Of a DNA stretch of 64,000 nt, positions 7,776-35,841 are shown piece by piece. The DNA lies in the NCBI GenBank assembly GCA_026387915.1, contig JAPLKS010000007.1, forward strand, positions 1-64,000. The letters run 5' to 3'. The translations under genes and the position numbers were made by a program. Positions within the stretch are counted from its first letter, which is position 1. Each line of letters begins with the position of its first letter. Below the pieces are notes generated by a model. The model did not search any database. It saw only the letters and a program-made list of their open reading frames with translations, and was not told the origin of the DNA. The DNA is from Gemmatimonadota bacterium (lineage in GTDB: Bacteria > Gemmatimonadota > Gemmatimonadetes > Gemmatimonadales > Gemmatimonadaceae).

Positions 7776-7780
7776 TGGGT

Positions 7781-8329
7781 TTAGTCGGAGATGAGCGACG
7801 AAGGATCAAAATTCGGAAAATTCGCATCTCGCCTTGAGATGATAATCGGTTCTCGAGGCCATCGAAAACCGAACGCGGGGTCATTGTACCGCAAACCGCG
7901 ATCAGCATCCGAGCGGTAGGCAGCGCTCATGTAGTAGTGCACCAAGGTGTCCGGCGCGGTGGTCAGCCAAGCATTTGCGCAGCCAGCCGGCACATGGAGC
8001 ATCCGGCGGTCAGATGAGGAAACTTCTACAGATATCCACTGTCGGAACGTCTGCGACTCCGGCCGCAAGTCAAGCACGATGTCGAATAACGATCCCGTGA
8101 AGCACGTGAGGGTCTTCGCCTCCCCAAACGGCGCAGCTTGAAAGTGGAAGCCCCGCAAAGTTCCCTCGTGCGGATTTTCCGATACGTTACCCTGCACCGC
8201 GTCCGCGGCAAGGCCATGTGCGGCAAACTCCGCCGAACAGTACGTGCGTCGAAATGCACCCCGCTCGTCGCGGAACAACTCCGGTTCGATCAGCCAAACA
8301 CCGGCCAAACCCAGTTCAGTGAACTTCAT
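7781..8329 (-). CDS. RfbC-like sugar-nucleotide 3,5-epimerase
   Basis: A cupin-type epimerase of 182 residues. It contains the active-site His in GTLRGFHFQ, FDIVLDLR, and HVPAGCANAWLT followed by VHYYMSAAYRSDADRG, which match dTDP-4-dehydrorhamnose 3,5-epimerase. No rmlA/B/D is in the window. Its neighbours point instead to 3- and/or 5-epimerisation of a GDP-4-keto-heptose, as for the Cj1430 type of Campylobacter (inference). The ATG chosen overlaps the methyltransferase stop as ATGA and starts at the family's usual N-terminus. Confidence 0.8.
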   Translation of the reverse strand: MKFTELGLAGVWLIEPELFRDERGAFRRTYCSAEFAAHGLAADAVQGNVSENPHEGTLRGFHFQAAPFGEAKTLTCFTGSLFDIVLDLRPESQTFRQWISVEVSSSDRRMLHVPAGCANAWLTTAPDTLVHYYMSAAYRSDADRGLRYNDPAFGFRWPREPIIISRRDANFPNFDPSSLISD

Positions 8330-10610: not shown

Positions 10611-11155
10611 GAGACAGGCTCCACGCCAGCAATCTGATCCACCGCCGATATCAGCCAGGACTGATGAGTGGTTTCAACGACGTTGTAGTTGCGGCTGTTG
10701 ACCCAGAGGTTAACCTCCCCGACGGTACGCAACGGATTCTCGGCGTCGAACCCCGACAGCGTCACCACACGTAGGCCTTTCTCTGTCGCGCGCCTTGCAC
10801 CATTGAGAATGTTGGGAGACCGTCCGCTGCTCGAAACAAACACCCCCACATCACCGGCATCCCCGTAGTAATCGATCGCCTTCTCGACCCACTGTTCGTA
10901 TCCGAAGTCGTTCCCGAAGCATGTAATCAGATCCGCATCATTGAACGTCATTGCGCGCAGGCCGGCCGCCTTTGTCAAGTCGACAGCGACATGGCTCGCG
11001 ATCGCGGCACTCCCGCCATTGCCGACCACGACGATCTTCCGACCACGCGAGCTTTTCAGAACATCACACAGGGACAGCAATTGAGCAGCGTTCGCGTCGG
11101 ACAGTCGCTGACCGAGCTCGCGGAAATACTCTTCGAAATAATTCATCATTGGCAT
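10607..11155 (-). CDS. SIS-domain phosphosugar isomerase, GmhA-like
   Basis: A single SIS domain of about 182 residues. It has GNGGSAAIASHVAVDL, the sugar-phosphate loop of sedoheptulose-7-phosphate isomerase (GmhA), and FVSSSGRSPN, the second phosphate-binding Ser cluster. GmhA converts sedoheptulose 7-phosphate to heptose 7-phosphate, the first committed step before HddA. The C-terminal region (VVETTHQSWLISAVD) differs from standard GmhA, so the exact sugar is not certain. The open frame extends upstream; the given ATG gives a normal N-terminus but lacks a strong ribosome site. Confidence 0.75.
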   Translation of the reverse strand: MPMMNYFEEYFRELGQRLSDANAAQLLSLCDVLKSSRGRKIVVVGNGGSAAIASHVAVDLTKAAGLRAMTFNDADLITCFGNDFGYEQWVEKAIDYYGDAGDVGVFVSSSGRSPNILNGARRATEKGLRVVTLSGFDAENPLRTVGEVNLWVNSRNYNVVETTHQSWLISAVDQIAGVEPVS

Positions 11156-11283
11156 GCGATCTATTTGAGATATTGGTCGTTCATCGAGTGAGAAACGATC
11201 ACAAACAGTGCTGTGATGTATGGCAGCGCACATTGTCTACGCACGGAACAACGCCAGTCCCATACCGACCGGCGATTACCCAA

Positions 11284-12267
11284 CTAAAGACCGGACTCGT
11301 CGTCGACGTTGAGCACGACCGGCGAATCGGCTCTCCATTCTGGCGATAGTGTTTCCCTAAATGCGCCAAGAATCACCTGCTCCTCCGTTCGAACGTCCAC
11401 GACCGGCATTGACGCGATGGCGGCCTGCCGGGCCAGTCCCGAGGCGTAGTTTAGCTGGCCTGAGGCATCCCGACCCTCTCGAAAACGCGACGGAAACAGC
11501 CACCGATGGTCCAATGATTCAACGATTGGAGCCGCCAGGTCGTTACGCACAAAGAACGCGTTGCACCCATGCATGTTGGTTCCGACACAGGTGTAGCCTT
11601 TTCGAGCAGCAAGTACAATAAGCGCTCGGATTGACGCCCCAAAATACAAGTTTGAATAGTGCGCTCGAGTGCGCTGAAAGTTCTCTGCGTACGGTACGGT
11701 AACGGACTGAATGTCGCCGAATAGCGCATTGTACTCGCACACGACAATCGCCGGTGTTACGACGTCGATGGCTTCCCACACCCAATAGTCGTTTCCGTCG
11801 ATGTCCACACTCAGGAGTCCGATGTCTCCGTGAAACCCTGCACCGGAGATAAGACCATTGATGTTTTCCCGCGTCACGAAAGCGCGTATCGCCTGCAAGT
11901 CGTACCGCCACGACAGGTCGTCTGCCCGAATCGCGGCGATATTCTCGTCCGATCCGTCGATTACGAGTCCCCTCCAGTTTCGAAGGGGCAGAAGGAGCCG
12001 CGAGTTTGACTCGCGGTAGTCATCAGCGCCGAATTCGACGAAGCTGGTCGGAGTGAATGGCAGCTGCGACACGAGCCAGTCGATGATGCCGTCCTCACCC
12101 CACTGCGAGTACGCGCAAAACTCAGCGTCGTGCAGTCCCGACAATCTTCTGCTTGTGCGATTACGCTGCGCGCAGGCCCGCGCTTGCAGCACCAGCTGCC
12201 GCTCCGCGAGTCGTTCCAGCCTATGGTTTCGTATGAGGCGCGACCGCATTTTCCCAAGCAGACTCAT
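11284..12267 (-). CDS. FkbM-like methyltransferase domain protein
   Basis: A 327-residue soluble protein with a Rossmann-like core: QWGEDGIIDWL, then SFVEFGADD (SAM-loop position), WRGLVIDGSDEN and a motif LLSVDIDGNDYWVWEA. These match a family often labelled FkbM-like in glycan loci. The C-terminal ~80 residues are not assigned. It probably O-methylates a sugar or an attached group, but activity has not been inferred from catalytic residues. Its start overlaps the upstream glycosyltransferase stop (ATGA). Confidence 0.55.
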   Translation of the reverse strand: MSLLGKMRSRLIRNHRLERLAERQLVLQARACAQRNRTSRRLSGLHDAEFCAYSQWGEDGIIDWLVSQLPFTPTSFVEFGADDYRESNSRLLLPLRNWRGLVIDGSDENIAAIRADDLSWRYDLQAIRAFVTRENINGLISGAGFHGDIGLLSVDIDGNDYWVWEAIDVVTPAIVVCEYNALFGDIQSVTVPYAENFQRTRAHYSNLYFGASIRALIVLAARKGYTCVGTNMHGCNAFFVRNDLAAPIVESLDHRWLFPSRFREGRDASGQLNYASGLARQAAIASMPVVDVRTEEQVILGAFRETLSPEWRADSPVVLNVDDESGL

Positions 12268-14845: not shown

Positions 14846-15762
14846 TCGGATACGCGGACTCCCTGCGGGGAGCCGTGTGTAACCAATAGATCTTGAAGAT
14901 GCTCAATCTCTCGGTGGGGCAACGCGCAGCGGTGACCTCCTGGCGGAATGCAGCTGACTACCCGTTTGCCGCCCAGCAGCGCCACCACCAACGCCATCGA
15001 TTCGCATCCGACGACCATATCGGCATCAGCGATTTCTGATACGAGCGCGCGAGAACCACCTTCTACAATTGGCAGACTGAATTCCGTGAGGGCCCAGCGA
15101 TACTTGCCTGCCGACTCCGCAGGATGCGAGCGTATCGTGATGCTTGAAATCCACGGATCCACGGCCGCCGAGTTGGACAGAAAGTAGCGTAACGAATCCT
15201 CTTCCGTGTACCCGAAGTAGCGTTCGTCGCCGAACTTCAACTTCCCATGTTCCCGGATTGGTTCAGTTACATAGAGGACAGAGGTTCCTGTCGTCCGCAA
15301 TGGTCCGCCTCCAGCGATCGCGAGAAATTCTTGTCGTACTTCTTGAAAATGCAGATTTGGCTCGAGCCGTACGACGGTACTAGGGAACGCGGCAACCGCT
15401 AGACGCTCAGCGTCCGAATCACCGACCCAGATTTCGTCCGGCAGACACAGCTGGCCATTTCGAACGAACCGCTCGGCGTAGTTCACCCAGTGATCGAGAA
15501 ATGCAACAGTGCGCATGCCCCGAGTTCGAAAGTGTGCGATGGCATCAATTTCGAGCGTCGACTGCCAACCCGTCCCGCATAGTAACTCGTCGGAGGTCTC
15601 CAAGGCGGCGCTAATCGTAGAGACCGTCAGGGGACCGAGCTTGCGCTCGAACACCTGACGCGCTGGGCCGCCGAGCACGTAGCACGAGGGAGCTGGGTGC
15701 GCGCGCACATAGCTACTGAGCACCTCAGCGCCGCCTGCATCGTGCGATACAATCGCGCGCAT
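14842..15762 (-). CDS. Unassigned Rossmann/GT-B-like protein (HDAGGAE motif)
   Basis: A 306-residue soluble protein. It begins with a glycine-rich motif SHDAGGAEVLSSYV and contains LLCGTGWQS, LDHWVNY, and a C-terminal VGCESMALVVALLGGKRVVS. The last resembles the donor site of GT-B enzymes and nucleotide-sugar hydrolases. It lies in the pseudaminic-type block beside the GNAT, where a PseG hydrolase would be expected, but the PseG signature (GTGHVMRC-like) is absent. Whether it replaces PseG or acts as a transferase is open. Confidence 0.4.
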   Translation of the reverse strand: MRAIVSHDAGGAEVLSSYVRAHPAPSCYVLGGPARQVFERKLGPLTVSTISAALETSDELLCGTGWQSTLEIDAIAHFRTRGMRTVAFLDHWVNYAERFVRNGQLCLPDEIWVGDSDAERLAVAAFPSTVVRLEPNLHFQEVRQEFLAIAGGGPLRTTGTSVLYVTEPIREHGKLKFGDERYFGYTEEDSLRYFLSNSAAVDPWISSITIRSHPAESAGKYRWALTEFSLPIVEGGSRALVSEIADADMVVGCESMALVVALLGGKRVVSCIPPGGHRCALPHREIEHLQDLLVTHGSPQGVRVSE

Positions 15763-16301
15763 CAGCTCGGGTCGCTCGTGAACTCGTCACGCTGAATACC
15801 AAAATCAACGACGTCTACCCGCGCACCCTCAAGGAAGATGTGCCCGCGTCGAGTGCCTTCGTGCGTCATACCCAACTTCTCGGCAAGCTTTCGCATTCCG
15901 ATATTAGTCGAAGCAGTAGAGCAGTAAATCCGGTAAAGGTCAATTTTACTGAACCCGTGATGCAATAAAACGCGGCCAGCTAGGAGTCCCAACCCTTGAC
16001 CCCAGTGGCGCTTGTCGCCAAGTAAGATGGCGAACTCCGCCGTACGATTGACAGCAGAAATGTCTTGCAAACTAACATTCCCGACGTGTCCGTCCTGCTT
16101 GTGGCAAACAGCCCAAACGATGCGACGCTCCTGCGCACTGGCAGCGACATAGTCCCGGTAGTACTCAATCGGATGACAGAATTTTCCGTGTGAGTTGTAT
16201 CGGCACACCTCCTGATCCTGAAACCACGTGGGGTACGATCCGAGGAGGTCAGCTTCCTCCAATGGTCTCACAAAATACGATTCGCCTATCTCGTAGATCA
16301 C
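15762..16301 (-). CDS. GNAT acetyltransferase, PseH-like
   Basis: A RimJ/RimL-type GNAT of about 180 residues. FVRPLEEADL is the N-terminal strand, HVGNVSLQDISAVNRTAEFA the core, and DKRHWGQGLGLLAGRVLL contains the acetyl-CoA (Q/R)xxGxG/A loop. RYNSHGK and the location with pseB, pseC and pseF suggest N-acetylation of UDP-4-amino-4,6-dideoxy-AltNAc (PseH step). A GTG start is preferred because it overlaps the upstream small-gene stop as GTGA; an in-frame ATG 24 bases upstream would overlap more. Confidence 0.75.
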   Translation of the reverse strand: MIYEIGESYFVRPLEEADLLGSYPTWFQDQEVCRYNSHGKFCHPIEYYRDYVAASAQERRIVWAVCHKQDGHVGNVSLQDISAVNRTAEFAILLGDKRHWGQGLGLLAGRVLLHHGFSKIDLYRIYCSTASTNIGMRKLAEKLGMTHEGTRRGHIFLEGARVDVVDFGIQRDEFTSDPS

Positions 16302-16569
16302 TCGAGGACCTCCAGGTGACTCCATTGTTCATGATACGTAGCGGCGATTGAATCCACCTCACGGTCTATCAGCTTGCCATCGCACATAAACAAGGCCGAT
16401 ATCTGCTCCGAACTCAACTCACCGACGAACCGCGCTGACCTAGCCCAGCAATCAGACGAAGAAATACTAGATGAGATGCCGACGTCTCTGCAGTGTGCCC
16501 GCAGCGCGAGATCAAGCCTTCGCCGAAGAACCCCGCTCAGACTTCATCCCGTTCTGTTTGCAAGTTCAT
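16298..16569 (-). pseudogene. Frameshifted small gene between pseF and the GNAT gene
   Basis: An ATG overlapping the pseF stop (ATGA) opens only 10 codons (MNLQTERDEV) before TGA. Another frame carries 80 plausible codons from about 16540, ending SIAATYHEQWSHLEVLE with a TGA that overlaps the GNAT start as GTGA. Joining the two frames with one indel near 16540 gives a protein of about 90 residues with normal coupling at both ends. I do not recognise it. It is either a real mutation or a sequence error in an intact small gene. Confidence 0.55.
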
Positions 16570-17333
16570 TTTGGATCCACTGCTCGAGAAGCGGCGGGAG
16601 TCGCGTTTGTCACGACCGACGGATGAACGAGCCGCATTTCAGTTAGCCTGAAGATCTCCTCTGCCCGGGCCCAATCTTCGAGCGAGTCGACGTCTTGAAC
16701 TCGACTATGCGGCATGAGGTGCATTCGGCTTCGTTCCGTATAGACGGGCTTTTCAGCCAACCATGATTCGCGGCGTCCGATATAGAACTGCCCCGCGTCG
16801 TGAAAGGCGAGTTCCAGATCCTGCGTACGACTGGCAGCGAACTGAGGTGCTATCATCTCGCAGCCCCCCGCAGGAAGCTGGCGGAGGGCGCGCTGTATGG
16901 GATGATGGAAATCGGTCGCCGTGAAAACGTAATCGATTCGTTCGTCCTCGCTAAGTACACGAATGGCGTTCGCATAATCTGCCGGTGCCACAAAGACGGC
17001 TCCCGGATAAACACACGCTATGAGCGGTGCACTCACACCCTCGGCCTCACAAGCCTCGACGGCATGGGCCATGACGGCTGATGTTCCGGTGCGGTCGTCG
17101 GCGAGCGAAGGGGGCCTGCGCCACAGGTATTCCGCGCCGGCCGCGACCGAGACTCGAGCGATTTCGTCGTCATCGGTCGACACCACGATGCGATCAAATT
17201 GCTCCGACTCCAAGACGAGCCCAATCGCGCGCGCCACTAGGGGCACACCAAACATTAAGCGCACGTTCTTTCGCGGTATTCGCTTGCTCCCTCCCCTGGC
17301 CGTGATCACGGCAATCGCTCGATTCGATTTCAC
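16566..17333 (-). CDS. pseF: Pseudaminic acid-type cytidylyltransferase
   Basis: A CMP-sugar synthetase of 255 residues. AVITARGGSKRIPRKNVR is the CTP-binding signature of NeuA/PseF. VVSTDDDEIARV and RRPPSLADDRTGTSAVM are typical, and the PseF-like QDLELAFHDAGQFYIG is near the C-terminal end. It would activate a nonulosonic acid with CTP. The GTG used overlaps the pseC stop (GTGA) and starts right before the catalytic loop; longer frames would overlap pseC by 80 bases. Confidence 0.88.
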   Translation of the reverse strand: MKSNRAIAVITARGGSKRIPRKNVRLMFGVPLVARAIGLVLESEQFDRIVVSTDDDEIARVSVAAGAEYLWRRPPSLADDRTGTSAVMAHAVEACEAEGVSAPLIACVYPGAVFVAPADYANAIRVLSEDERIDYVFTATDFHHPIQRALRQLPAGGCEMIAPQFAASRTQDLELAFHDAGQFYIGRRESWLAEKPVYTERSRMHLMPHSRVQDVDSLEDWARAEEIFRLTEMRLVHPSVVTNATPAASRAVDPK

Positions 17334-18487
17334 GCGACCAACCCCGAATGCCCCAACGCTATACGAACGCAGTCGATGACGCGATCGCAGTCGGGCGATG
17401 TAAGCCCGTGCCACATCGGCAAGGACAGCAATGACGCGTACGCCGACTCGGTCACTGGGCAGAGCCCTCGCGCATAACCAAGCGATTCGTAGCTAGAGTG
17501 CCAGTAGACAGGTCGATAATGTACGTTGACGCCTATTTTATGTCGGCGCAAATCATCATAAAGAGCCGCACGCGCTTCAGACGGACCATCCGTGATGAGT
17601 CGCACAGGATACAGGTGATATGCGTGCGTGCGATCCGGAGGCACAACTGGAAGTGAGAGGGGCAACCCTGCCAGGCCCGCGGAATATCGCGACGCTATCG
17701 CCCGACGGTGCCCAAGCCATCGCGATGCATGCTTCAATTGCGACAGGCCAAGGGCGCTCTGAAGATCGCTCAGTCGATAATTGAAGCCGAGCATGGTCTG
17801 GTCGTATTCCCAAGTACCCAACTCTTCACGTTGCCTGTGATCCGTCGTGATGCCGTGATTCCGAAGTATGCGAATTTTGGCGGCCAGTTTCGGATCGTTG
17901 GCGGTCACCATGCCACCTTCCGCCGTGGTGAAGTGTTTTACCGGGTGAAAACTGAACGTTGTCAAGTCGGCGATGCCGCCAACCTTCCTTCCCCGGTACT
18001 CAGCTCCCGGCGCATGGCACGCGTCCTCAACTAGGAAAAGTCCATGCCGATCACAAATGGCGCGCAAGGCATCGAGATCGGATGGCAACCCCGCGTAGTC
18101 GACTGCGACAATCGCTTTGGTGCGAGGCGTCACCAGGGAAGCCACAAGTGCTGTGTCTATGGTAAGCGTATCCTGCCGCACATCGGCGAAAACCACGGTC
18201 CCACCCACGTAGCGCACGCAGTTCGCGCTTGCCGCGAACGTCAACGCGGGCACGATAACTTCGTCGCCGACGCCGACCCCCGCGGCCAACATACAGAGGT
18301 GCAATGCCGCAGTTCCACTTGACACTGCAATGGCGTTTTCCGCGCCAACATATTCAGCAAATGCCGTTTCGAACCTTGCGACAGTCGGACCGGTCGTCAG
18401 CCAGTCACCGCGCAATACCTCCATGACAGCGGCGACGTCGTCATCGTCAATCTCTTGTCTACCGTACGGGATAAACCGCTCGGTCAC
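17330..18487 (-). CDS. pseC: UDP-4-keto sugar aminotransferase (PseC, DegT family)
   Basis: A PLP-dependent aminotransferase of 385 residues. It has the N-terminal PYGRQEID...LTTGP signature, VSSGTAALHLCMLA, EDACHAPGAEYRG, and the PLP-lysine in FSFHPVKHFTTAEGG. HPVKHFTTAEGG and GFNYRLSDLQSALGLSQL fit PseC, which makes UDP-4-amino-4,6-dideoxy-AltNAc from the PseB product using glutamate. GTG start overlapping the pseB stop (GTGA). Confidence 0.9.
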   Translation of the reverse strand: MTERFIPYGRQEIDDDDVAAVMEVLRGDWLTTGPTVARFETAFAEYVGAENAIAVSSGTAALHLCMLAAGVGVGDEVIVPALTFAASANCVRYVGGTVVFADVRQDTLTIDTALVASLVTPRTKAIVAVDYAGLPSDLDALRAICDRHGLFLVEDACHAPGAEYRGRKVGGIADLTTFSFHPVKHFTTAEGGMVTANDPKLAAKIRILRNHGITTDHRQREELGTWEYDQTMLGFNYRLSDLQSALGLSQLKHASRWLGHRRAIASRYSAGLAGLPLSLPVVPPDRTHAYHLYPVRLITDGPSEARAALYDDLRRHKIGVNVHYRPVYWHSSYESLGYARGLCPVTESAYASLLSLPMWHGLTSPDCDRVIDCVRIALGHSGLVA

Positions 18488-19521
18488 TGGGGCAACTCCA
18501 CCTGACACTCGCGCGAAATAAGTTCACGCAACTCAGCCACCGAGAGGAAGCGCTCGTTATTTGCGCTGTTATAACTGAACCCTGGCGCGCACCGCCACCC
18601 GGCCTGCGTAGCGCTCTCGGCAACAAATTGTTCAACGTCCCACAGGGGCGTCGACGGGAGTATCACGAAGTGGCCGGCAAACTCGATCGTGGCCAATGAA
18701 TCCGTGCTTGTGACCATCTCTTCGTGCAGCTTTTCGCCTGGCCGAATGCCGACTACGTGATGGGTAGCACTCGGCGCAATTGCTCGTGCGACGTCCGTGA
18801 TTCGATAACTCGGAATCTTTGGCACGAACAGCTCCCCACCCCACAATCGACCCAGCGCTCCGAGAACCAGATCCACGCCTTCCTGCAGCGTGATATTGAA
18901 TCGCGTCATCGCGGAGTCGGTAATCGGCAGCACCCCAGACGAACGGCGTTTCAAGAAGAACGGTACGACAGAGCCGCGGCTACCGAGAACGTTACCGTAG
19001 CGCACGACACTAAAACGAATATCGCGATCACCACGATGGTTGTTGGCGGCAATGAAAAGTTTGTCCGACGCAAGCTTGCTCGCGCCGTACAGGTTAATCG
19101 GCGCGGCTGCCTTGTCCGTACTGAGCGCGATCACCCGCCGCACACTCGGGCTACCGAGCGCGGCCTCCACGACATTCTGAGCACCAAGAATATTCGTCTT
19201 GATGCACTCGAAAGGATTGTACTCGGCAGCGGGGACCTGCTTGAGCGCCGCCGCGTGAATCACGACATCCACGCGCTCCATGGCCTTGCGAAGGCGCGCC
19301 TCGTCTCGCACGTCGCCAATGAAATAGCGCATGATGTCCGCGTGCTGCGCAAACGGTTCAGCATTTTGCATGTCGAACTGCTTCAGCTCGTCTCGACTGA
19401 ACACTATGAGTCTGGCTGGCCGAAACCGTTCCAACACCGTTTTGCAAAACCGCTGGCCAAATGAGCCCGTGCCACCGGTCACAAGGACGTGCGCGCCATC
19501 GAGCGAGAAGGGTTCAGTCAC
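18484..19521 (-). CDS. pseB: UDP-GlcNAc 4,6-dehydratase (5-inverting)
   Basis: A soluble SDR-type dehydratase of 345 residues. It has the Rossmann motif TGGTGSFGQ, FSRDELKQFDMQ, AAALKQVPAAEYNPFE, LSTDKAAAPINLYGASK (catalytic Tyr and Lys) and GNVLGSRGSVVPFF. These are diagnostic for PseB/FlaA1. It is the first step of pseudaminic acid synthesis from UDP-GlcNAc. Its start overlaps the ABC flippase stop (ATGA), so flippase and precursor synthesis are co-translated. Confidence 0.93.
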   Translation of the reverse strand: MTEPFSLDGAHVLVTGGTGSFGQRFCKTVLERFRPARLIVFSRDELKQFDMQNAEPFAQHADIMRYFIGDVRDEARLRKAMERVDVVIHAAALKQVPAAEYNPFECIKTNILGAQNVVEAALGSPSVRRVIALSTDKAAAPINLYGASKLASDKLFIAANNHRGDRDIRFSVVRYGNVLGSRGSVVPFFLKRRSSGVLPITDSAMTRFNITLQEGVDLVLGALGRLWGGELFVPKIPSYRITDVARAIAPSATHHVVGIRPGEKLHEEMVTSTDSLATIEFAGHFVILPSTPLWDVEQFVAESATQAGWRCAPGFSYNSANNERFLSVAELRELISRECQVELPQ

Positions 19522-25236: not shown

Positions 25237-25456
25237 GACGGGATCTCCTCAAATCGATGCCTGCAGATCGCCACAACAGCACCGGACGGCCTGCACGCCC
25301 AGCATTATATTCTCTGCCGGGGATCAAACTCGGCAACCGCTCGCATTTTGCCGACCTCGGTTGCAATACTATACCACAAATCGACGCCGGAGTGCCCCTC
25401 CAGCATAACGCGTCGCTTTCCGCAACGTCCGTTCGTTTTTGCCCACTGGAGTAGGC

Positions 25457-26698
25457 ATGGCCCTGAACATCTGGATGCTGTGTATCGGAGAGCCCCTTCC
25501 CCTAGGGCCCGTCCGAGAAAACCGCACCTCGCTCCTCAGCCGAGCACTACTGGGGCGCGGTCACTCCGTGCTCTGGTGGACCAGCGCCTTTGACCACTTT
25601 TCCAAGTCCTGGCATTTCCCCGAAGACACGCGCGTAGCCGTTGGGGACAAATGGTCCCTTTTTGCACTCCATGGGTGCGGCTATCAGCGAAATGTGTCGC
25701 TTCGGCGATTCGTCGACCACCGCCTGATCGCACGAAAATTTGCCAAGCTGGCGCTTGAAGAACCGGTGCCAGACCTCATCATTGCTTCGCTTCCCGCCCA
25801 CGACCTCGCGTACGAAGCGTCGCGTTACGCCACGAAACACGGCGTCCCCCTGATCTTGGATTTGCGCGATCAGTGGCCAGACCTTATCATCGACGCCCTG
25901 CCGTCGGCCGTGCGCTGGCTTGGGAAAATCGCACTATATAAGGACGCTCGGATGACCGCGGTCAGCGTCCAAGATGCCACCTCTGTAACGTCCATGTTGC
26001 CGTCCGTACTCGAGTGGGGACAGCAGCGCGGCAAGCGCGCTCCGACTCCGCTGGATCGCGTCTTCTACCTCGGAGCCGAGGAAGCACAGGCCACCGACGC
26101 ACCCGATGCGCCGAAACTCCGCGAGATTGCCGACCTGCCGAAACGTCCGATCGTCGCCTTCATCGGAACCTTTGGCCGTTATTATCACCCAGAGATCCTC
26201 GCTCGGGTCGCAAGACGGATGGCGGATACCGACGCGCTATTCGTCCTCGGCGGAGACGGCGAGTTCATGCCGCAGGTCACGGAAGCCTGCCGCGGGCTTC
26301 AAAATGTGATTACGCCAGGATGGATGACAAACCGCGACATCGGCTGGCTACTGGCGCGCAGTACCGTCGGTGTGATTCCCTGCAACATCGACGCGGATGC
26401 CCTCCCGAACAAATTCTTCACGTACATCTCCGGCGGTGTGCCGATCGTCAGTAGTCTCGACGGAGAGGCGCGACGCCTGCTGGAGCACGAGGGACTCGGC
26501 CGGTACTACCGCACGGGAGATGAGCAAGGACTGGAGGCCGCACTTCGATCACTGCTCTCATCGCCCGAGGAGCTGGTCGCGATGAGCCAACGGGCGCGCG
26601 CCTTCTTTGACGCGAACCTGCGGAGTGACATCATCTACGGGGACTTTGCCCGCCACGCCGAGCAGGTGGCGACGCTCCGAAACTCGGCGGCGAAGTAA
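25457..26698 (+). CDS. Glycosyltransferase, GT4-like (GT-B)
   Basis: A 413-residue GT-B protein with an N-terminal WMLCIGEPLPL and a donor domain with VAFIGTFGRYYHPEIL, VLGGDGEF and FFTYISGGVPIVSSLDGEA. These resemble GT4 enzymes that add a sugar to a lipid-linked glycan. The ATG given follows a good GGAG site; the open frame begins 18 bases upstream at TTG. Divergent from wecB, with a gap of about 220 bases that shows no clear element. The donor sugar is unknown. Confidence 0.85.
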   Translation: MALNIWMLCIGEPLPLGPVRENRTSLLSRALLGRGHSVLWWTSAFDHFSKSWHFPEDTRVAVGDKWSLFALHGCGYQRNVSLRRFVDHRLIARKFAKLALEEPVPDLIIASLPAHDLAYEASRYATKHGVPLILDLRDQWPDLIIDALPSAVRWLGKIALYKDARMTAVSVQDATSVTSMLPSVLEWGQQRGKRAPTPLDRVFYLGAEEAQATDAPDAPKLREIADLPKRPIVAFIGTFGRYYHPEILARVARRMADTDALFVLGGDGEFMPQVTEACRGLQNVITPGWMTNRDIGWLLARSTVGVIPCNIDADALPNKFFTYISGGVPIVSSLDGEARRLLEHEGLGRYYRTGDEQGLEAALRSLLSSPEELVAMSQRARAFFDANLRSDIIYGDFARHAEQVATLRNSAAK

Positions 26699-28151: not shown

Positions 28152-30038
28152 TCACGACGCCGTCGACTGCGGCACCGGCCCGAGTTCTGGGATGACGCGG
28201 TGCAAGAGTTTCACGAGCCGCTCGTCAGATTCTCCGTCGGACAAGAGCGATTCGAGCTGCGCTAATGCCGCGGCATCTCCGAGTGCGGCGTCGGTGAGAC
28301 GGACGACATTGATACTGGAGTGCGCCGTCGCCTCAAGTGCTTCGGTCTCTGCAATGAGAGCCTCATGCAGTTTCTCGCCAGGACGCGTTCCAGTAAAAAC
28401 AATCTGCACATCATCATCAGGAGTCATTCCGCTTAAGCGAACGAGATCTCGTGCGAGGTCCACGATCTTGATCGGGTTTCCCATGTTGAGCACAAAGAGC
28501 TCTCCCCCTCGACTCAACACAGACGCTTGCAACACCAGTTCCACGGCCTCAGAAGTTGCCATGAAGAACCGCGTCATCTCGGGATGCGTCACGGTAATGC
28601 GGCGCTGCGTCTGAATCTGTTCGAGAAACAAAGGCACCACGGACCCGCGAGAGCCCAGTACATTGCCGAACCGCACGGCCGAGTAGACCGTGCGAGACTT
28701 TCCTGCGCGCTGCCACATCAGCAGTTCGGTGAGGCGCTTGGTCGCCCCCATGACGCTCGACGGGTGAACCGCCTTGTCGCTCGAAATGATCACAACGCGC
28801 GGCACGCCGAGCGATTCGCACAGCGTGAGGAGCGCTAGGGTCCCGCCGACATTGTTCACAAGGGCGGCAACCGGATTCTGTTCCATCAGAGGAACATGCT
28901 TGTACGCAGCCGCGTGATAAACGACGTCTGGGATGAGGCCAGCAAGCTGCGCGCGCAGGAGCTTAGCGTCGCGTACATCTGCGACGATCGGCACCACATG
29001 AAGCGATGGATAGCTCGCTAGGAGCCGGCGCTGCACCTGGTACATCCCATCTTCGTTGTGATCCACCAGCACCAAATGCGCCGGTTCGCAACGCGCACAC
29101 TGACGCGCCAGCTCTGAGCCGATCGATCCGCCCGCTCCCGTTACCATCACCGTCTTACCGCCGACCAACGCCTGTACGGCCGCTAGGTCGCTTTCTACCC
29201 TCGGCCGGCGCAGCAAGTCGTCGATATCAACCGTCCGCAACGCCTGCATCACCTTTGTCCCGGCGGCAATCTCACTCGGAGCAGGCATCAACTTCGCCAC
29301 AACCCCGGCTGCCGATGTCGCCGCCAGAATGCGCCGGACCAGCGCCCCATTCGGGTTGCGAATGGCGATGATCACCAACTCGGCCTTGTGTTCGCCAATA
29401 AGAGCTGGCAGCGAATCGACTCCGCCGAGCACGGGCACCCCGCCAAGGGATCGTGCGTGCTTCGAGGCGTCGTCATCGACGAAGCCCGCGACATCAATCG
29501 TGGTACTAGCGGTCCGGAGATCCTGCAGCAACAGTTGCCCCAGACGCCCAGCTCCAACGATCAACGTCCCGCCCGATCCTCCAGCTCGACTCGCGGCACC
29601 CGCGTTCACAAGGCGACGCCAAAGCCGAGGCGCCACCACCGCAGTAACCGCAAACGCGCAGTCCATGAAAATGATCGCTAACGGAAGTCGCCGTCCGAAC
29701 CCCGGCGGGATAAACCGAACGAGCAACCCGCCGTGTAACAAGCAAAGAGCAGATGCGACAGAAACGGCAATGAGCAGACGGCTCACATCCACCGCACTCG
29801 CATAGTTCCAGAGCGCCTTGTACGCACCTCCCCGCCAGTTCGCGACCAAACGGATAACGAGAGCACCCAGCGTGTACTTCAAGTAGAGCGCAAACACGTC
29901 TGGCGGCAGCGTGAGCGACTCCACTCTCACTCCAAACGCCAAGTACGGTGTCGTGATCAATAAAAGCACGTCCAGCGCCAAGTAACTCAACGCTGAACGG
30001 GTCTCACGAGGCTGCGCTGATGCGTGCGTGTCGAGCAT
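28152..30038 (-). CDS. Membrane nucleoside-diphosphate-sugar dehydratase (WbpM/PglF type)
   Basis: A 628-residue polysaccharide biosynthesis protein. Residues 15-120 hold four hydrophobic helices. A CoA-binding-like Rossmann region follows, then the catalytic SDR domain (from about residue 285) with TGAGGSIGSELARQC, YHAAAYKHVPLMEQNP, SSDKAVHPSSVMGATKR and GNVLGSRGSVVPLF. The Met in place of catalytic Tyr is normal for this long WbpM/PglF form. It would make a UDP-4-keto-6-deoxy-HexNAc. PseB makes a related keto sugar, so this locus has two dehydratases. Divergent from the sugar transferase. Confidence 0.9.
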   Translation of the reverse strand: MLDTHASAQPRETRSALSYLALDVLLLITTPYLAFGVRVESLTLPPDVFALYLKYTLGALVIRLVANWRGGAYKALWNYASAVDVSRLLIAVSVASALCLLHGGLLVRFIPPGFGRRLPLAIIFMDCAFAVTAVVAPRLWRRLVNAGAASRAGGSGGTLIVGAGRLGQLLLQDLRTASTTIDVAGFVDDDASKHARSLGGVPVLGGVDSLPALIGEHKAELVIIAIRNPNGALVRRILAATSAAGVVAKLMPAPSEIAAGTKVMQALRTVDIDDLLRRPRVESDLAAVQALVGGKTVMVTGAGGSIGSELARQCARCEPAHLVLVDHNEDGMYQVQRRLLASYPSLHVVPIVADVRDAKLLRAQLAGLIPDVVYHAAAYKHVPLMEQNPVAALVNNVGGTLALLTLCESLGVPRVVIISSDKAVHPSSVMGATKRLTELLMWQRAGKSRTVYSAVRFGNVLGSRGSVVPLFLEQIQTQRRITVTHPEMTRFFMATSEAVELVLQASVLSRGGELFVLNMGNPIKIVDLARDLVRLSGMTPDDDVQIVFTGTRPGEKLHEALIAETEALEATAHSSINVVRLTDAALGDAAALAQLESLLSDGESDERLVKLLHRVIPELGPVPQSTAS

Positions 30039-30213: not shown

Positions 30214-30855
30214 GTGAAGCGGACTTTTGACCTGGCCGCGGCCGCCCTCGGCCTCATCGTCCTCTCCCCACTGTTCCTGCTCCTCGCCCTCTGGATAAAG
30301 CGCGACTCCCCAGGCCCCGTCTTCTACCGCGGCGTCCGCGGCGCCCGCGGCGGCGGCTCCTTCCGCATCTTCAAGTTCCGCTCGATGGTCCAGAACGCCG
30401 ACAAAACCGGCCAGAGCTCGAGCGGCTCCGACGACGCCCGCGTCACCCCCAGCGGCCACTTTATTCGCCGCTTCAAGTTCGACGAGTTCGCCCAGCTCAT
30501 CAATGTGTTCCTCGGCGACATGAGCCTCGTCGGCCCCCGGCCCGAAGTGCTCAAATACACCGAGAATTACACGGGCGAGTTCCGCGAGATCCTCACCGCG
30601 CGCCCCGGCATCACCGACTGGGCCAGCATTTGGAACAACGACGAAGGGGCGGTGTTGGCAGGGTATCCCGATGCCGATCTCGCCTATGAACAGCTCATCC
30701 AGCCCACCAAATTACAGCTCCAGCTCCGCTATGTGCGCCACCGCACCTTCGGGGGCGACATCAAGATTTTGTTCAGCACGGTGTGGGTGCTCGTGAACCG
30801 CGATTTCTATCCGCGCGAACTGCAAAGCACGCCCCGCCTTAAAAAGCGTTTCTAG
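30214..30855 (+). CDS. Initiating sugar-phosphate transferase
   Basis: A 213-residue bacterial sugar transferase (short PssY/PglC form). It has a single N-terminal membrane segment (residues 5-27: DLAAAALGLIVLSPLFLLLAL), then SPGPVFYRGVRG, FKFRSMV, the catalytic LRR/DEF region (RRFKFDEFAQLINVFLGDMS) and LVGPRPE. It transfers a sugar phosphate from a UDP-sugar to undecaprenyl phosphate, the first step of glycan assembly. GTG start. Codon and base use here are more GC-rich than the flanking genes. Confidence 0.92.
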   Translation: MKRTFDLAAAALGLIVLSPLFLLLALWIKRDSPGPVFYRGVRGARGGGSFRIFKFRSMVQNADKTGQSSSGSDDARVTPSGHFIRRFKFDEFAQLINVFLGDMSLVGPRPEVLKYTENYTGEFREILTARPGITDWASIWNNDEGAVLAGYPDADLAYEQLIQPTKLQLQLRYVRHRTFGGDIKILFSTVWVLVNRDFYPRELQSTPRLKKRF

Positions 30856-30913: not shown

Positions 30914-32012
30914 ATGACCGCCACTCGCGAAATCCCGTTCTTCAACTACCGCGGCACCTTCGCCGCCATTGAGCAGGAACTCACCAGCACGTTCCACGAT
31001 GTGCTCTCGCGTGGCGCGTTCATCATGCAAAAAGATCTGCGTGACTTCGAAACCGCCTGCGCCGAATACCTCGGCGTCAAACACGCGTTTGGGGTGGGCA
31101 ATGCCACCGACGGCCTCCACATCGCGCTGCGCGCCGCTGGCATTCAACCAGGAGACGAAGTCATTCTCCCTGCGCACACTATGATCGCAACGCCAGCCGC
31201 CGTGCACTTCGCGGGCGGCGTCCCCGTCGCAGTGGACATCGGCCCCGATCACATGATGGACGCCGCGACCATTGAACCGGCCATCACCAAGCGCACCAAG
31301 TTCATCATGCCCGTGCAGGTGAACGGCCGCACCTGCGACATGGACGCCATTGGCGCCGTCGCCAAAAAGCACAATCTCACTATTGTCGAAGACGCCGCGC
31401 AGGCGCTCGGCTCCCGCTTCAAAGGCAAACTCGCCGGCACCTTCGGCGCTGCGAGCGCCTTCAGCTTCTACCCGGCCAAAGTGCTCGGCTGCCTCGGCGA
31501 CGGCGGCCTCGTGGCCACCCGACAAGCTCCACGGCCTCCGCGACCACGGCCGCGACCGCGACGGCGAAATCACGGCGTGGGGAATGAACACGCGCCTCGA
31601 CAACCTGCAAGCCGCTTTCCTGCACTTGCAGCTCAAGACGTACCAGAACGTCATCGACTACCGCCGCGACATTGCCAAGGCCTACCACGAAGAACTCGGC
31701 ACCCTCGCCGAAGTGACGCTGCCGCCGGCGCCCGATGCCGACCCGCGCCACTTTGATGTGTATCAGAACTTTGAGATGGAAGCCGACAAGCGCGACGCGT
31801 TGCAGCTGCACCTCAAGGCCAATGGCATTGGCTCGCTGGTGCAGTGGAGCGGACGCGCCATTCACCAGCACCCCAAGCTCGGCCTCAAGGCTCACGCGCC
31901 GGTGACCGACAAGTTCTTCACGCGTTGCGTGATGATCCCCATGAATGTGCTCGTGACGCGCAGCGACGTCGCATACATCTCGCAGGTGATTCGCGGGTTC
32001 TACGGCAAGTGA
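30914..32012 (+). pseudogene. DegT/DnrJ/EryC1-type sugar aminotransferase with a frameshift
   Basis: The N-terminal half (30914 to about 31520) carries VGNATDGLHIALRAAG, EDAAQALGSRFKGK and FSFYPAKVLGCLGDGGLVAT, including the PLP-lysine. The sequence then continues in another frame as DKLHGLRDHGRDRDGEITAWGMNTRLDNLQAAFL and runs to GFYGK with a normal stop. The shift is at about 31520-31525. Without it the enzyme would have the usual length of about 365 residues. The downstream E1 gene overlaps its stop (GTGA), so the gene was recently intact or is a sequencing error. Confidence 0.85.
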
Positions 32013-33043
32013 ACCAGTCGCTCACTTCTCTCGCCGACGCCAAGGCGCATCACGAACCCATTGCGTTCGGCGATGCCGATCCGGTGCCGTTTGTGCAGGC
32101 GCTGCATCGCATGGTGCGCATCCGCCGCGCCGAGGAGCGCATTGCGGAGAATGTGGCGACTGGGGTGATCAAGTGCCCCTGCCACCTCGCCATTGGGCAG
32201 GAAGCGGCTGCAGTGGGCGTGGCGATGCATCTGCGCAGCACCGACCGCGCCTTTGGCGCGCACCGCTCGCACGCGCACTTCTTGGCAATGGGCGGCAGTC
32301 TCGACGGCCTCTTTGCCGAAGTACTCGGCCGCGACACCGGCGTGTCGCGCGGCATGGGTGGCTCCATGCACCTCGCCGCCAAGGAAGTCGGCTTCTACGG
32401 CTCTGTGCCCATTGTTGGCGCGAGCATTCCGATTGCCGTCGGCGCCGGGCTCGCCGCGCAGATGGACAAAAAAGGTGACGTTGGCGTCAGCTTTTTCGGC
32501 GACGGCGCAGCGGAAGAGGGGAGCTTTCACGAGTCCATGAACCTCGCGTCGGTGATGAACCTCCCCGTGTTGTTTGTGTGCGAGAACAACATGTTCGCGA
32601 GTCACCTGCACATCAGCTTGCGCCAGCCTAAGAATGTGGTGGCACGCTACGCCGTGGCGCACGCCATGCCGCACGCGACAGTGGACGGCAATGACGTCGT
32701 GGCCGTGTGGAGCGCCCTCAACGCCGCCGCGGCCGCCTGGCGCGCCGGCACCGGCGGGCCCTTCTTCCTCGAGGCCGTCACATACCGTTGGCTCGGGCAT
32801 GTGGGCCACCGCGACGACCAAGACGTAGGCGTCGCCCGCAAGGACGACCTCAGCGATTGGAAGGGACGCGACCCCGTGCGCCGACTCGCCGAGTCGCTCG
32901 CAACGGTGGGCGTGCTCAGCCCCAAGGAATTCGCCGCTATGGAAAGTGCCATCAGCGACGAAGTGTCCACCTCATGGGCCAAGGCACTCACGCAGCCCTT
33001 CCCCGAGCCCAACGCCCTCCTCAACCGAGTGTGGGCCAAGTGA
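32009..33043 (+). CDS. Thiamine-diphosphate dehydrogenase E1 component, alpha subunit
   Basis: A 344-residue E1-alpha with the ThDP-binding motif GDGAAEEGSFHESMNLAS...VCENN (about residues 165-195), GMGGSMHL and CHLAIGQEAAAVGVAM. In pyruvate or branched-chain dehydrogenases this subunit decarboxylates a 2-keto acid with E1-beta. No E2 or E3 gene is near, and the gene is coupled (GTGA) to a sugar aminotransferase. A role in adding a 2-keto-acid-derived unit to a sugar is one reading (inference). Confidence 0.88.
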   Translation: MNQSLTSLADAKAHHEPIAFGDADPVPFVQALHRMVRIRRAEERIAENVATGVIKCPCHLAIGQEAAAVGVAMHLRSTDRAFGAHRSHAHFLAMGGSLDGLFAEVLGRDTGVSRGMGGSMHLAAKEVGFYGSVPIVGASIPIAVGAGLAAQMDKKGDVGVSFFGDGAAEEGSFHESMNLASVMNLPVLFVCENNMFASHLHISLRQPKNVVARYAVAHAMPHATVDGNDVVAVWSALNAAAAAWRAGTGGPFFLEAVTYRWLGHVGHRDDQDVGVARKDDLSDWKGRDPVRRLAESLATVGVLSPKEFAAMESAISDEVSTSWAKALTQPFPEPNALLNRVWAK

Positions 33044-34029
33044 CCGCCACCGTGAAGACCTCATACGGCGTTGCCATTCGCGATGGCTTTGCGCATTTGC
33101 TCGCCAAGCACCCAAAGGCCTTTGTGATGGGTCAGGGCCTTTGGAGCCCGTGGTACGTGGGCAACTCCATGACGAACCTCGAGATTGAGTTCGGCAAGGA
33201 GCGGGTGATTGATGTGCCCGTGAGTGAAGTGGCCACGACTGGCGCAGGCATTGGCGCCGCGCTCAGCGGCTACCGCCCCATTGTGGTGCACCCGCGTGTG
33301 GACTTCATGATGCTTGCGGTGGACCAGATTGTGACGCAAGCCGCCAAGTGGCGTTCGATGTTCGGCGGCGACGTGAGTGTGCCGCTGGTGATTCGCGGCA
33401 TTATCAATCGTGGCGGCGAGCAGGGCGCGCAGCACTCGCAGAGCTTGCAGAGCTGGTTCGCGCACATCCCAGGGCTTCACGTGCTGATGCCCGCCACGCC
33501 ACGCGACGCGCGCGACATGCTCATTGCCGCCACGCTCTGCGACGACCCCGTGCTCTACATGGACGACCGTTGGTGCTACGAGTTGGAGGAGGAACTGCCG
33601 CCAGCTGCGGATGTGAGCATCAACGACATTGCTCCGCTGCGTCGTCGCACGGGCAAGGACATCACGCTCGTGGGCTGTGGCTACACCACCAAGCTCAACC
33701 TCGAGGCCGCCGAGTTGCTCGCCGCGCTGGGGATTGAGGCCGACGTGATTGATTTGCGGTTGCTGAATCCGCTCAAGCCCGCGCTGGTGCACGAGTCTGC
33801 GGCCAAAACCGGACGCATGTTGGTAGTAGATGGCGACTGGCGGTCGTGCGGCCTCGCGGCTGAGATCATTGCTGGCGTGGCTGAACGGCCCGAGCTTCGT
33901 GCCGGCGTGCACTGCGCGCGCATTACACACCCCGATGCGCCGGCGCCGACCAGCAAGCCGCTTGAGCAGGCGTTTTACTTTACGGCCGCGGACATTGTGC
34001 GTGAGGCCCGCACCCTTTGCGGGCGCTGA
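33040..34029 (+). CDS. Thiamine-diphosphate dehydrogenase E1 component, beta subunit
   Basis: A 329-residue transketolase-like E1-beta. It has the pyrimidine-binding DVPVSEVATTGAGIGAAL, RPIVVHPRVDFMMLAVDQI and a C-terminal transketolase domain with LVGCGYTTKLNLEAAELL and VVDGDWRSCG. It pairs with the preceding alpha subunit and is translated by a GTGA overlap. The downstream glycosyltransferase starts 9 bases after the stop. Only E1 subunits are present, so a non-oxidative reaction is possible. Confidence 0.88.
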   Translation: MTATVKTSYGVAIRDGFAHLLAKHPKAFVMGQGLWSPWYVGNSMTNLEIEFGKERVIDVPVSEVATTGAGIGAALSGYRPIVVHPRVDFMMLAVDQIVTQAAKWRSMFGGDVSVPLVIRGIINRGGEQGAQHSQSLQSWFAHIPGLHVLMPATPRDARDMLIAATLCDDPVLYMDDRWCYELEEELPPAADVSINDIAPLRRRTGKDITLVGCGYTTKLNLEAAELLAALGIEADVIDLRLLNPLKPALVHESAAKTGRMLVVDGDWRSCGLAAEIIAGVAERPELRAGVHCARITHPDAPAPTSKPLEQAFYFTAADIVREARTLCGR

Positions 34030-34037
34030 AGACACGT

Positions 34038-35159
34038 ATGCGACTTCTGTTTCTCGCCCCCGCCAACTCGGTCCACAGCGCACGCTGGATTCGGTGGTTT
34101 GCGGGGGCCGGTCACGAGGTCACGTGGATCTCTGCGCATCCAGCTGAGGTCGCCATTCCCGCGAACGTAACGCTGCACGTCCTCCCGCAGGACGCGAAGG
34201 TCACGCGATGGCCGCGCTGGCTGTTGAATGTTCGCCGGATTATTCGAGCGGCAAATCCGGAGGTCGTACACGTGCATTCGCTTGGCACCTACGCCCTTCT
34301 CGCCTTCGGCGTACCGAATGGAATCCCGATGGTTGCGACACCTTGGGGCTCTGACATCATTCTTGATGCGAACAGCTGGTGGCGCCGCGCGATTGTACGA
34401 CGCACCCTGCACCGTTCATCGATATACACCTGCGATGCGCAGCATATGGGACCGCGACTCGTAGAGTTCGGAGTTGACGCAAAGCGCATACGCTTTATCA
34501 ACTTCGGAATCGAGTCCGAGCGGTTCACTCCACTTGCGGCGACGCGCTTCGAAAAGGCAGGGCCGGTTGAACCGACTGAGCGACTCGCCGACGCGACACC
34601 GCTACGAGTACTCAGTCTCCGTAATCTGGAACCAGTTTACGATGTCGCCACATTGATTCACGCAGCCGCGATTCTCGACTCCGAAAAACTGCCCGTCGCC
34701 GTGTCCATTTACGGAGGCGGGTCGCTACGAGCCGAGCTCGAAGCGTTGGTTCGGGAGCGAGGCCTTGAACACTGCGTCAGTTTTGGTGGCCGTTACTCCC
34801 ACGAAACGCTACCTGGAATCTTGGAAGCGGCCGAGGTTTATGTGTCGACCTCTACGTCCGATGCCGGGATTGCCGCTAGCACGGCGGAGGCAATGGCGGC
34901 CGGGCTACCGGTAATCGTCTCAGACTCCGGCGAGAATGCCATATGGATCACAGACGGTGTGAACGGCCGCTTATTCCAGGTCGGGGACGCCGCGGCGCTC
35001 GCCAAGGCCCTCGCGGAGGCCTCCCAGAGCCCCGCCAAACGCCGAGGATGGGCGGAAAGGGGGATGCGCACGGTGCTCGACCGCAACGACTACCGAACCG
35101 AAATGGGCAAGGTGGAGTCGCTGTACCGATCGGTTTCGGGGGCTCCGCATGACCGCTAG
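34038..35159 (+). CDS. Family 4 glycosyltransferase
   Basis: GT-B enzyme of 373 residues. The N-terminal domain begins MRLLFLAPANSVHSARWIR. The C-terminal donor domain has SIYGGGSLRAELEAL, VSFGGRYSHETLP, VYVSTSTSDAGIAASTAEAMAAGLPV and ENAIWITDGVNGRLF, matching GT4 EX7E-type sites. It is likely a retaining transferase for surface glycan. The ATG given gives a normal N-terminus; an open frame begins 21 bases upstream. The stop overlaps the methyltransferase start. Confidence 0.9.
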   Translation: MRLLFLAPANSVHSARWIRWFAGAGHEVTWISAHPAEVAIPANVTLHVLPQDAKVTRWPRWLLNVRRIIRAANPEVVHVHSLGTYALLAFGVPNGIPMVATPWGSDIILDANSWWRRAIVRRTLHRSSIYTCDAQHMGPRLVEFGVDAKRIRFINFGIESERFTPLAATRFEKAGPVEPTERLADATPLRVLSLRNLEPVYDVATLIHAAAILDSEKLPVAVSIYGGGSLRAELEALVRERGLEHCVSFGGRYSHETLPGILEAAEVYVSTSTSDAGIAASTAEAMAAGLPVIVSDSGENAIWITDGVNGRLFQVGDAAALAKALAEASQSPAKRRGWAERGMRTVLDRNDYRTEMGKVESLYRSVSGAPHDR

Positions 35160-35841
35160 GCACCTCCTGCGGATTGCCTTTCGACGACTCCCCGGTCGCC
35201 AGATTCTCCGGACTTTCGCGTTTCGCAGTGGGGCTATCAAATGGTGGTGGCGATACCGGCATTTCCTCGACGGTTCCTATCGCGAAGCGCCTCCACTTGA
35301 TGATGCTGTAGCGCCCCATCGGCACCAGCTTTGGTCGCTGATCTCACCGCTCTCGGCCACTAGCTTGATCGAAGTTGGCTGTGGAGACGGTGGCAATCTC
35401 GCCCTCTTCGCTTCGCACAGCCAGCAGATGCGGCTGTGGGCAGTCGACGTGAACCCTTTAGCCCTCGGAATTGCAGAACAGCGGGTGCGTCGTCAGGGAG
35501 GAGCTACCGGAGAATTTCGCGTGGCGCCGGCTAATCATTTACCGATGCCGTCTTCATGTGTCGACATCGCACTGTCGGACGCGGTCTTTATGTACCTTCC
35601 TCAGAGCGTGGCAACTGCCGCGCTCCGCGAGATGCGTCGCGTCGCGCGCAAAGCGATCATCGTGCACACGTTTGCAGATATGTCCCTAGCTGAGAGCGCC
35701 GTGATCGGCGGGAACTGGGTACACAACATCCCCGTCCTCATACTGCGTGCCATTCCTGGGGCCACCGTGACCCAGCACAAGTCGCGCGTAGATCACGGCC
35801 AGTGGGCCGAGTACGGCACGGTCTTCACCATCACATGGTAA
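35149..35841 (+). CDS. Class I SAM-dependent methyltransferase
   Basis: A 230-residue methyltransferase with motif I LIEVGCGDGGNLALFA (about residues 70-85), LWAVDVNPLALGIAEQRV, and DIALSDAVFMYLP at motif IV. Methyltransf_11-type fold. It may methylate a sugar or lipid precursor; the substrate is unknown. ATG start lies inside the end of the upstream glycosyltransferase gene, and the stop overlaps the start of the next gene. Confidence 0.85.
   Translation: MTARHLLRIAFRRLPGRQILRTFAFRSGAIKWWWRYRHFLDGSYREAPPLDDAVAPHRHQLWSLISPLSATSLIEVGCGDGGNLALFASHSQQMRLWAVDVNPLALGIAEQRVRRQGGATGEFRVAPANHLPMPSSCVDIALSDAVFMYLPQSVATAALREMRRVARKAIIVHTFADMSLAESAVIGGNWVHNIPVLILRAIPGATVTQHKSRVDHGQWAEYGTVFTITW

Follow-up and report, generated by a model that had tools for sequence, protein, structure and literature searches.

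We analyzed a stretch of 64,000 nucleotides from a Gemmatimonadota bacterium (assembly GCA_026387915.1, contig JAPLKS010000007.1, positions 1-64,000, forward strand), referred to here as the window. It contains a glycan gene island in which genes for a sugar transferase (PF02397), a DegT aminotransferase, and the two subunits of a thiamin diphosphate (ThDP) enzyme, E1-alpha and E1-beta, follow one another on the plus strand between positions 30214 and 34029. The island is flanked by a CapD-type dehydratase, glycosyltransferases, a methyltransferase, and an O-antigen-ligase-like protein. The genes of interest are listed below, where counts out of 85 refer to non-redundant loci of the cassette, the flanks of many of which are cut.

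25439-26698, plus strand: GT4-family glycosyltransferase (Pfam Glyco_trans_1_4; its cluster occurs in 46/85 loci and recurs near the cassette in other phyla)
28152-30038, minus strand: CapD/PglF-type 4,6-dehydratase of nucleoside diphosphate (NDP)-linked N-acetylhexosamine (HexNAc) (Polysacc_synt_2, PF02719, 352 bits; cluster in 33/85 loci), the likely source of a 4-keto-6-deoxy sugar
30214-30855, plus strand: small initiating phosphoglycosyltransferase, a PglC-like bacterial sugar transferase (PF02397; cluster in 75/85 loci)
30914-31518, plus strand: 5' part of the DegT aminotransferase, residues 1 to about 202, including the pyridoxal phosphate (PLP) lysine region SFYPAK
31519-32012, plus strand: 3' part of the DegT aminotransferase, out of frame after a 17-bp deletion (intact in the comparison genome G007)
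32009-33043, plus strand: E1-alpha-like ThDP subunit with the GDG...ENN motif (PF00676, 217.5 bits), its GTG start overlapping the DegT stop
33040-34029, plus strand: E1-beta-like ThDP subunit (PF02779 and PF02780) with Glu63 and His132 kept and HPRxDF at residues 84-89
34038-35159, plus strand: downstream GT4 glycosyltransferase of the same island, start set at the in-frame ATG 34038
35149-35841, plus strand: S-adenosylmethionine (SAM) methyltransferase (one is usually found close to the cassette, from several unrelated clusters)

A first-pass annotation, made from the sequence alone, had described a DegT gene and complete E1-alpha and E1-beta genes joined by GTGA overlaps. The overlaps are real: the GTGA at 32009-32012 ends DegT and contains the GTG start of E1-alpha, and the next GTGA, at 33040-33043, joins E1-alpha to E1-beta and contains the GTG start of the latter. 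Pfam matches and alignments indicate that E1-alpha and E1-beta are both complete, as separate subunits with intact ThDP-binding and catalytic residues. The DegT protein has the PF01041 aminotransferase fold with its PLP lysine (Lys189, invariant in the DegT alignment), but the gene is frameshifted as assembled. The island was also said to lack E2 and E3, the partner subunits of dehydrogenase complexes, and this holds: there is no E2 gene anywhere in the window, and the three E2 genes of the genome lie on contigs C14 and C17.

A search of glycan loci for the same three-gene cassette had been proposed in the annotation; the cassette, usually with DegT or a reductase beside the E1 pair, occurs in loci of at least 16 phyla, including Pelagibacteraceae (SAR11), Prochlorococcus, and members of Chloroflexota; this count is a lower bound drawn from the records of GTDB relatives and other loci. 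Among 395 genomes of the phylum, the E1-beta clade is sharply separated, with 13 proteins scoring 416-745 bits and the next one 266 bits. Scanning GTDB genomes identified 172 relatives, with 53-98% identity for the best 80, and the nearest named cassette records are Gemmatimonadota metagenome-assembled genomes (MAGs). Clustering of neighbors in 93 loci, followed by Pfam identification of the recurrent clusters, yielded GT4, three alternative SAM-methyltransferases, DegT or an aldo-keto reductase (AKR, PF00248), E1-alpha, E1-beta, the sugar transferase, and the CapD-type dehydratase. The consensus cassette runs GT4, methyltransferase, DegT or AKR, E1-alpha, E1-beta, and initiating sugar transferase, and a CapD-type 4,6-dehydratase frequently accompanies it. 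The gene directly before E1-alpha is DegT in 52/85 non-redundant loci and AKR in 10/85, and an initiating sugar transferase directly follows E1-beta in 52/85. The association of DegT, E1-alpha, and E1-beta is far beyond chance, since dozens of loci across many phyla share it.

To place the E1 pair, we built trees on concatenated E1-alpha and E1-beta. The cassette E1 clade is monophyletic, and a 100/100 branch sets this clade, three actinobacterial deoxysugar pairs, and three other DegT-linked pairs apart from E2-linked or canonical pairs. At residues 84-88 of the window E1-beta, all 20 rows on the sugar side of this branch carry H-x-R-x-D in place of I/F-M-T-x-N (0/22 of the other rows), and the sugar side also shares changes at E1-alpha P56, H84, N227, W260, and V264. 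E1-beta retains its catalytic Glu63 and His132 and E1-alpha its GDG...NN motif, with several neighboring positions changed in common. The two Streptomyces E1-beta proteins that best match the clade profile (296 and 290 bits; 296 genomes) are both located in deoxysugar clusters without E2. Streptomyces locus L178 contains EF-G, an MFS transporter, the E1 pair, a sugar 3,5-epimerase, an NDP-hexose 2,3-dehydratase, an EryCIII-like glycosyltransferase, and an ADIC-synthase-like gene; judged by this gene content and not by any name, it is a paulomycin-type cluster, matching the pau cluster (PMC4425429). In a further Streptomyces locus (L179), RmlA and RmlB adjoin the E1 pair and a type II-like ketosynthase is present, and in another actinobacterium (L202/L203) RmlA and RmlB come directly after the E1 pair.

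Several other E1 pairs are of note. The plasmid pSGRIFU1 of Streptomyces griseofuscus (L171, 7977-10023) encodes E1-alpha and E1-beta of the actinobacterial sugar-branching clade, surrounded by regulators of the gamma-butyrolactone type and a protein with a condensation domain; within 9 kb, none of the annotated genes is a sugar gene. Locus L086 (genome G062, 7152-11424) has an intermediate E1 pair of 266 bits followed by two DegT genes, and the trees place it with the actinobacterial branching enzymes. A plasmid search for named cassette members gave none above 44% identity, and other islands with E1 and DegT turned up. Two plasmid loci, on pDMC1 of Solidesulfovibrio magneticus (L172, 7955-13860) and on a plasmid of Azospirillum thermophilum (L173, 7995-12192), have a different E1 alpha/beta pair, a DegT of ~400 residues, and an NAD-dependent epimerase-type gene; their E1 pair has the HxRxD signature and falls with the sugar E1s in the tree.

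The tree also bears on whether the window pair could be the E1 component of an ordinary 2-oxoacid dehydrogenase complex, with E2 and E3 encoded elsewhere in the genome. The window pair shares the fold, the ThDP motif, and the catalytic Glu and His of PdhA/PdhB, every ThDP-binding and catalytic E1 residue is kept, and three E2 genes are available, all of which would be compatible with such a role. However, one of these E2 genes belongs to a complete and separate E1a-E1b-E2-E3 operon for pyruvate dehydrogenase (PDH) at C17:508.7-513.6 kb, which has its own E1 pair, and the window pair is on the opposite side of the tree, clustering with sugar E1s that have no E2. The two pairs also differ in their substrate-side residues and in the absence of E2 and E3 from the window locus. 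In addition, the E1-alpha residue next to the loop histidine is Ser in 20/20 compared canonical E1s and Val throughout the cassette clade, and the gene neighborhood is devoted to glycans in loci of many phyla. We therefore rejected the window pair as the E1 of the PDH complex, and we regard a dehydrogenase role of this kind as extremely improbable.

We propose instead that E1 pairs of the window type are stand-alone ThDP carboligases of the alphaKADH2 type, and that the branch ketone they would produce is then aminated by DegT or reduced by AKR. We estimate the probability of this prediction at roughly 65%. It draws on the gene content and its conservation, the exchange of DegT and AKR, the E1 phylogeny, the kept catalytic and signature residues, and the E2-less locus. 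The class alphaKADH2 was named in a 2025 review that counts about 120 clusters (PMC12247030). In our scheme, E1-alpha/E1-beta would decarboxylate pyruvate, the presumed donor, and transfer the acetyl anion to the keto group of an NDP-6-deoxy sugar. The acceptor is most likely the C-4 ketone of uridine diphosphate (UDP)-4-keto-6-deoxy-HexNAc from the neighboring CapD-type dehydratase, a choice suggested by the CapD and PglC-like neighbors; C-4 would be preferred to C-3. The product of the E1 step would be an acetyl-branched tertiary alcohol. DegT would then convert the branch ketone into a 1-aminoethyl group, AKR in the sister cassettes would give a 1-hydroxyethyl group instead, and the methyltransferase may modify the product. 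Finally, the small sugar transferase would load the branched sugar onto undecaprenyl phosphate, so that it becomes the first residue of a surface glycan. By analogy, both finishing steps have precedents in the alphaKADH2 class, for which reduction as well as transamination of the branch ketone is on record (PMC12247030). The suggestion of the first-pass annotation that the E1 pair acts outside a dehydrogenase complex and transfers an acyl group to a keto sugar thus seems largely right in its chemistry, as the phylogeny, signature residues, and neighborhood all fit carboligases.

The exchange of DegT and AKR was scored within four genes of the E1 pair in the 85 loci. DegT alone was found in 59 loci, AKR alone in 14, both in 4, and neither in 8; several of the last group are cut contigs, or have an AKR missed by open reading frame (ORF) calling (L079) or a broken DegT (L168). 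The two genes seldom occur together (Fisher p 1.6e-7, relatedness ignored), and at least 11 changes between them are needed on the E1-pair tree, 8 of which are forced by well-supported branches. Methyltransferases are also distributed unevenly: cluster MT5 is present in 27/59 DegT loci vs 0/14 AKR-only loci (p 0.001), and cluster c6 is more common with AKR (8/14 vs 8/59 DegT loci, p 0.001). Three methyltransferase clusters occur near the cassette, for example in loci L146, L114, and L152. Since a transaminase and a ketone reductase swap repeatedly beside a constant carboligase, these observations suggest that both act on the carbonyl left by the carboligase. They also speak to the other proposal of the earlier annotation, acylation of an amino sugar; here DegT would supply the amino sugar, and the E1 pair would transfer an acyl group from a 2-oxoacid to its nitrogen (or an oxygen). 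This would account for DegT adjoining E1 in most loci, but it is disfavored because AKR often takes the place of DegT while E1 stays: in at least 14 loci AKR is combined with the same E1 pair, so that an amine is not required. N-acylation would moreover need an oxidant or an acyl carrier, neither of which is encoded, and the known precedents form C-C bonds. We consider acylation very unlikely.

Where DegT itself acts is harder to assign. In profile comparisons, the cassette DegT scores 286-317 bits with entries of the DesV/QdtB/WbpE type and 116-132 bits with solved-structure entries that we take to be PglE, so that PglE is not its closest relative among solved aminotransferases. Both PglE and PseC were rejected as identities, as no NCBIfam equivalog cut-off was reached and they are far by profile. 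A structure model of DegT (mean predicted local distance difference test score, pLDDT, 73) has the same nearest structures as the sequence, including DesV, QdtB, WbpE, and WlaRG, and does not settle the substrate. Since both the profile and the predicted fold place DegT closest to C-3 ring aminotransferases, there are two live alternatives: amination of the ring, or a branch at C-3 like that of kibdelomycin. In the former case, E1 would still add the acetyl branch, but DegT or AKR would work on a ring ketone at C-3 or C-4, before or after branching, and give a ring amine or hydroxyl. That members of the class can branch at C-3 or C-4 (PMC12247030) leaves room for this. We nevertheless consider it rather unlikely: a 4-keto sugar retains only the branch ketone after the addition, no 3,4-ketoisomerase or 2,3-dehydratase stood out among the recurrent neighbor clusters, and kibdelomycin provides a precedent for transamination of the branch.

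Other observations also weigh against a branch-forming carboligase followed by finishing of the branch ketone. The identity between the window clade and the Streptomyces carboligases is only about 40%, the cassette clade is a relative of these enzymes and is not nested among them, and the topology joining cassette and actinobacterial E1s is neither supported nor rejected (p-AU, approximately unbiased test, 0.171). The CapD gene was found in just 33 of the 85 loci, though many flanks are cut, and the affinity of DegT to the C-3 ring-ketone enzymes DesV, QdtB, and WbpE would fit ring amination as well. In paulomycin biosynthesis, the acetyl branch is reduced by Pau7, an AKR (PMC4753412). The cassette AKR falls outside the Pau7 family; YhdN/IolS-like enzymes are nearest to it, and none of the genes of L178, the paulomycin-type cluster, matches it. 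Orthology to Pau7 was therefore dropped as unsupported, and the parallel between the two is analogy only, as they belong to different AKR groups.

We note that the window copy of the cassette is itself interrupted as assembled. Its DegT gene is not one uninterrupted frame: the 17-bp deletion at about 31518/31519 puts residues 1-203 and 201-371 into different frames. The near-identical genome G007, used here for comparison, lacks the deletion and carries an intact gene, 17 bp longer, for a protein of 371 residues that is identical except for six residues lost in the window; this identifies the 280-residue ORF that ends at 31756 as the result of a frameshift. Synonymous and non-synonymous differences between the window and G007 number 46 and 16 in E1-alpha, 49 and 5 in E1-beta, and 16 and 0 in DegT, and the DegT figures imply that the break, if real, is recent. 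Contig C10 of the same assembly breaks off within another copy of the first 44 codons of DegT (window 30914-31046; protein 100% identical), which makes the assembly doubtful near DegT. On C10:1-7000 (L205), this second copy is preceded by a G007-like version of the PGT, GT4, CapD, and PMT genes. The C10 copy may be a second locus or come from a second strain in the assembly, and the assembler may have mixed two strains or copies. The break may be either a real deletion or an artefact of assembly or strain mixing.

Broken genes were also seen in two other cassettes, a frameshifted DegT in a Puniceicoccales MAG (L168, 6413-6989) and a split E1-alpha in a Gemmatimonadota genome (L085, 9988-11332). 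As DegT is broken as assembled, the window cassette may be inactive. A further step would be that it is decaying, with DegT a pseudogene and the E1 pair being lost, which is compatible with the proposed role of the family as a whole. The frameshifting deletion and the breaks in L168 and L085 point in this direction; on the other hand, the window E1 genes are intact with mostly synonymous differences from G007, the assembly is doubtful at the very site of the break, and the function of the intact family would be unaffected. We regard decay of the window copy as a real possibility that falls somewhat short of even odds. Elsewhere in the window, at 15762-19521, genes for a GNAT acetyltransferase, a CTP-transferase, another DegT, and a short dehydratase of the CapD type lie in a row and form a pseudaminic- or legionaminic-acid-like set.

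The E1 chemistry had been presented as a new use of these enzymes, which is not the case: it is already established for antibiotic sugars, with precedents in avilamycin, aldgamycin, paulomycin, and kibdelomycin (PMC12247030). What our analysis adds to the first-pass annotation is the wide distribution of the surface-glycan cassette, the interchange of DegT with AKR, and the DegT break in this assembly. In the open-access literature, to which our searches were confined, we found nothing relevant on E1 genes in O-antigen or lipopolysaccharide (LPS) clusters or on aminoethyl-branched polysaccharide sugars; among the papers listed on Coxiella virenose, a possible lead, none contained "pyruvate dehydrogenase E1". 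Within this scope, the surface-glycan setting and the DegT/AKR exchange appear to be undescribed, and this distinct and very widespread clade appears to be new. Whether these loci, from at least 16 phyla and including SAR11 and Prochlorococcus, represent an undescribed and widespread pathway, in which an E1 carboligase makes a C-branched sugar that is transaminated or reduced and becomes the first sugar of a surface glycan, is in our judgment evenly balanced. If so, branched aminoethyl and hydroxyethyl sugars would be common in bacterial surface glycans and no longer rare features known from antibiotics and a few O-antigens, and a single gene pair would allow branched sugars to be predicted from sequence. 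It would also explain why many glycan loci contain orphan "pyruvate dehydrogenase E1" genes, a wrong name given by automatic annotation. Many new ThDP enzymes for chiral tertiary alcohols would become available, and there would be a direct route to testing which finishing enzyme sets the charge of the sugar.

The cassette resembles several known systems in part. With the bacillosamine module (PglF-PglE-PglC) it shares a CapD/PglF-like dehydratase, an aminotransferase of the DegT family, and a small initiating transferase resembling PglC, but its DegT is far from PglE-like entries, it has no consistent PglD-like acetyltransferase, and E1-alpha and E1-beta are added. YerE, which acts in the synthesis of yersiniose A of O-antigens, likewise puts a pyruvate-derived acetyl branch on a keto-deoxysugar of a surface polysaccharide. 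As the first-pass annotation correctly stated, YerE belongs to another ThDP family: it is a single-chain enzyme of the acetolactate-synthase type, whereas the window proteins are of the two-gene E1/transketolase type, with E1_dh and Transket_pyr/Transketolase_C as their significant Pfam families. The review assigns YerE-like enzymes to LPS and alphaKADH2 to secondary metabolites (PMC12247030). In that class, E1-like pairs described or proposed to attach a pyruvate-derived two-carbon branch, as in papers on paulomycin and everninomicin, include AviB1/AviB2, Pau11/Pau12, Plm8/Plm9, and EvdU5/EvdS3 (PMC4425429, PMC4802897, PMC10338323), and the members listed are those of aldgamycin (knockout and feeding), kibdelomycin (KbDH-alpha/beta, in vitro), kosinostatin, paulomycin, and avilamycin (PMC12247030). 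KbDH-alpha/beta couples pyruvate to ketones in vitro (PMC12247030). Kibdelomycin, with a pyruvate-derived branch whose ketone is transaminated (PMC12247030), offers the same two-step logic that we propose for the cassette, but its branch is at C-3 and its product is an antibiotic. Like the window proteins, Pau11/Pau12, Plm8/Plm9, AviB1/AviB2, EvdU5/EvdS3, and KbDH-alpha/beta are two-subunit E1-type enzymes encoded without E2 or E3 among NDP-deoxysugar genes, and the window pair is on the same side of the E1 tree, with HxRxD and the other signature residues in common. Those enzymes are listed for actinobacterial secondary metabolites, whereas the cassette forms a separate clade that belongs to surface-glycan loci across many phyla and is linked with an initiating sugar transferase.

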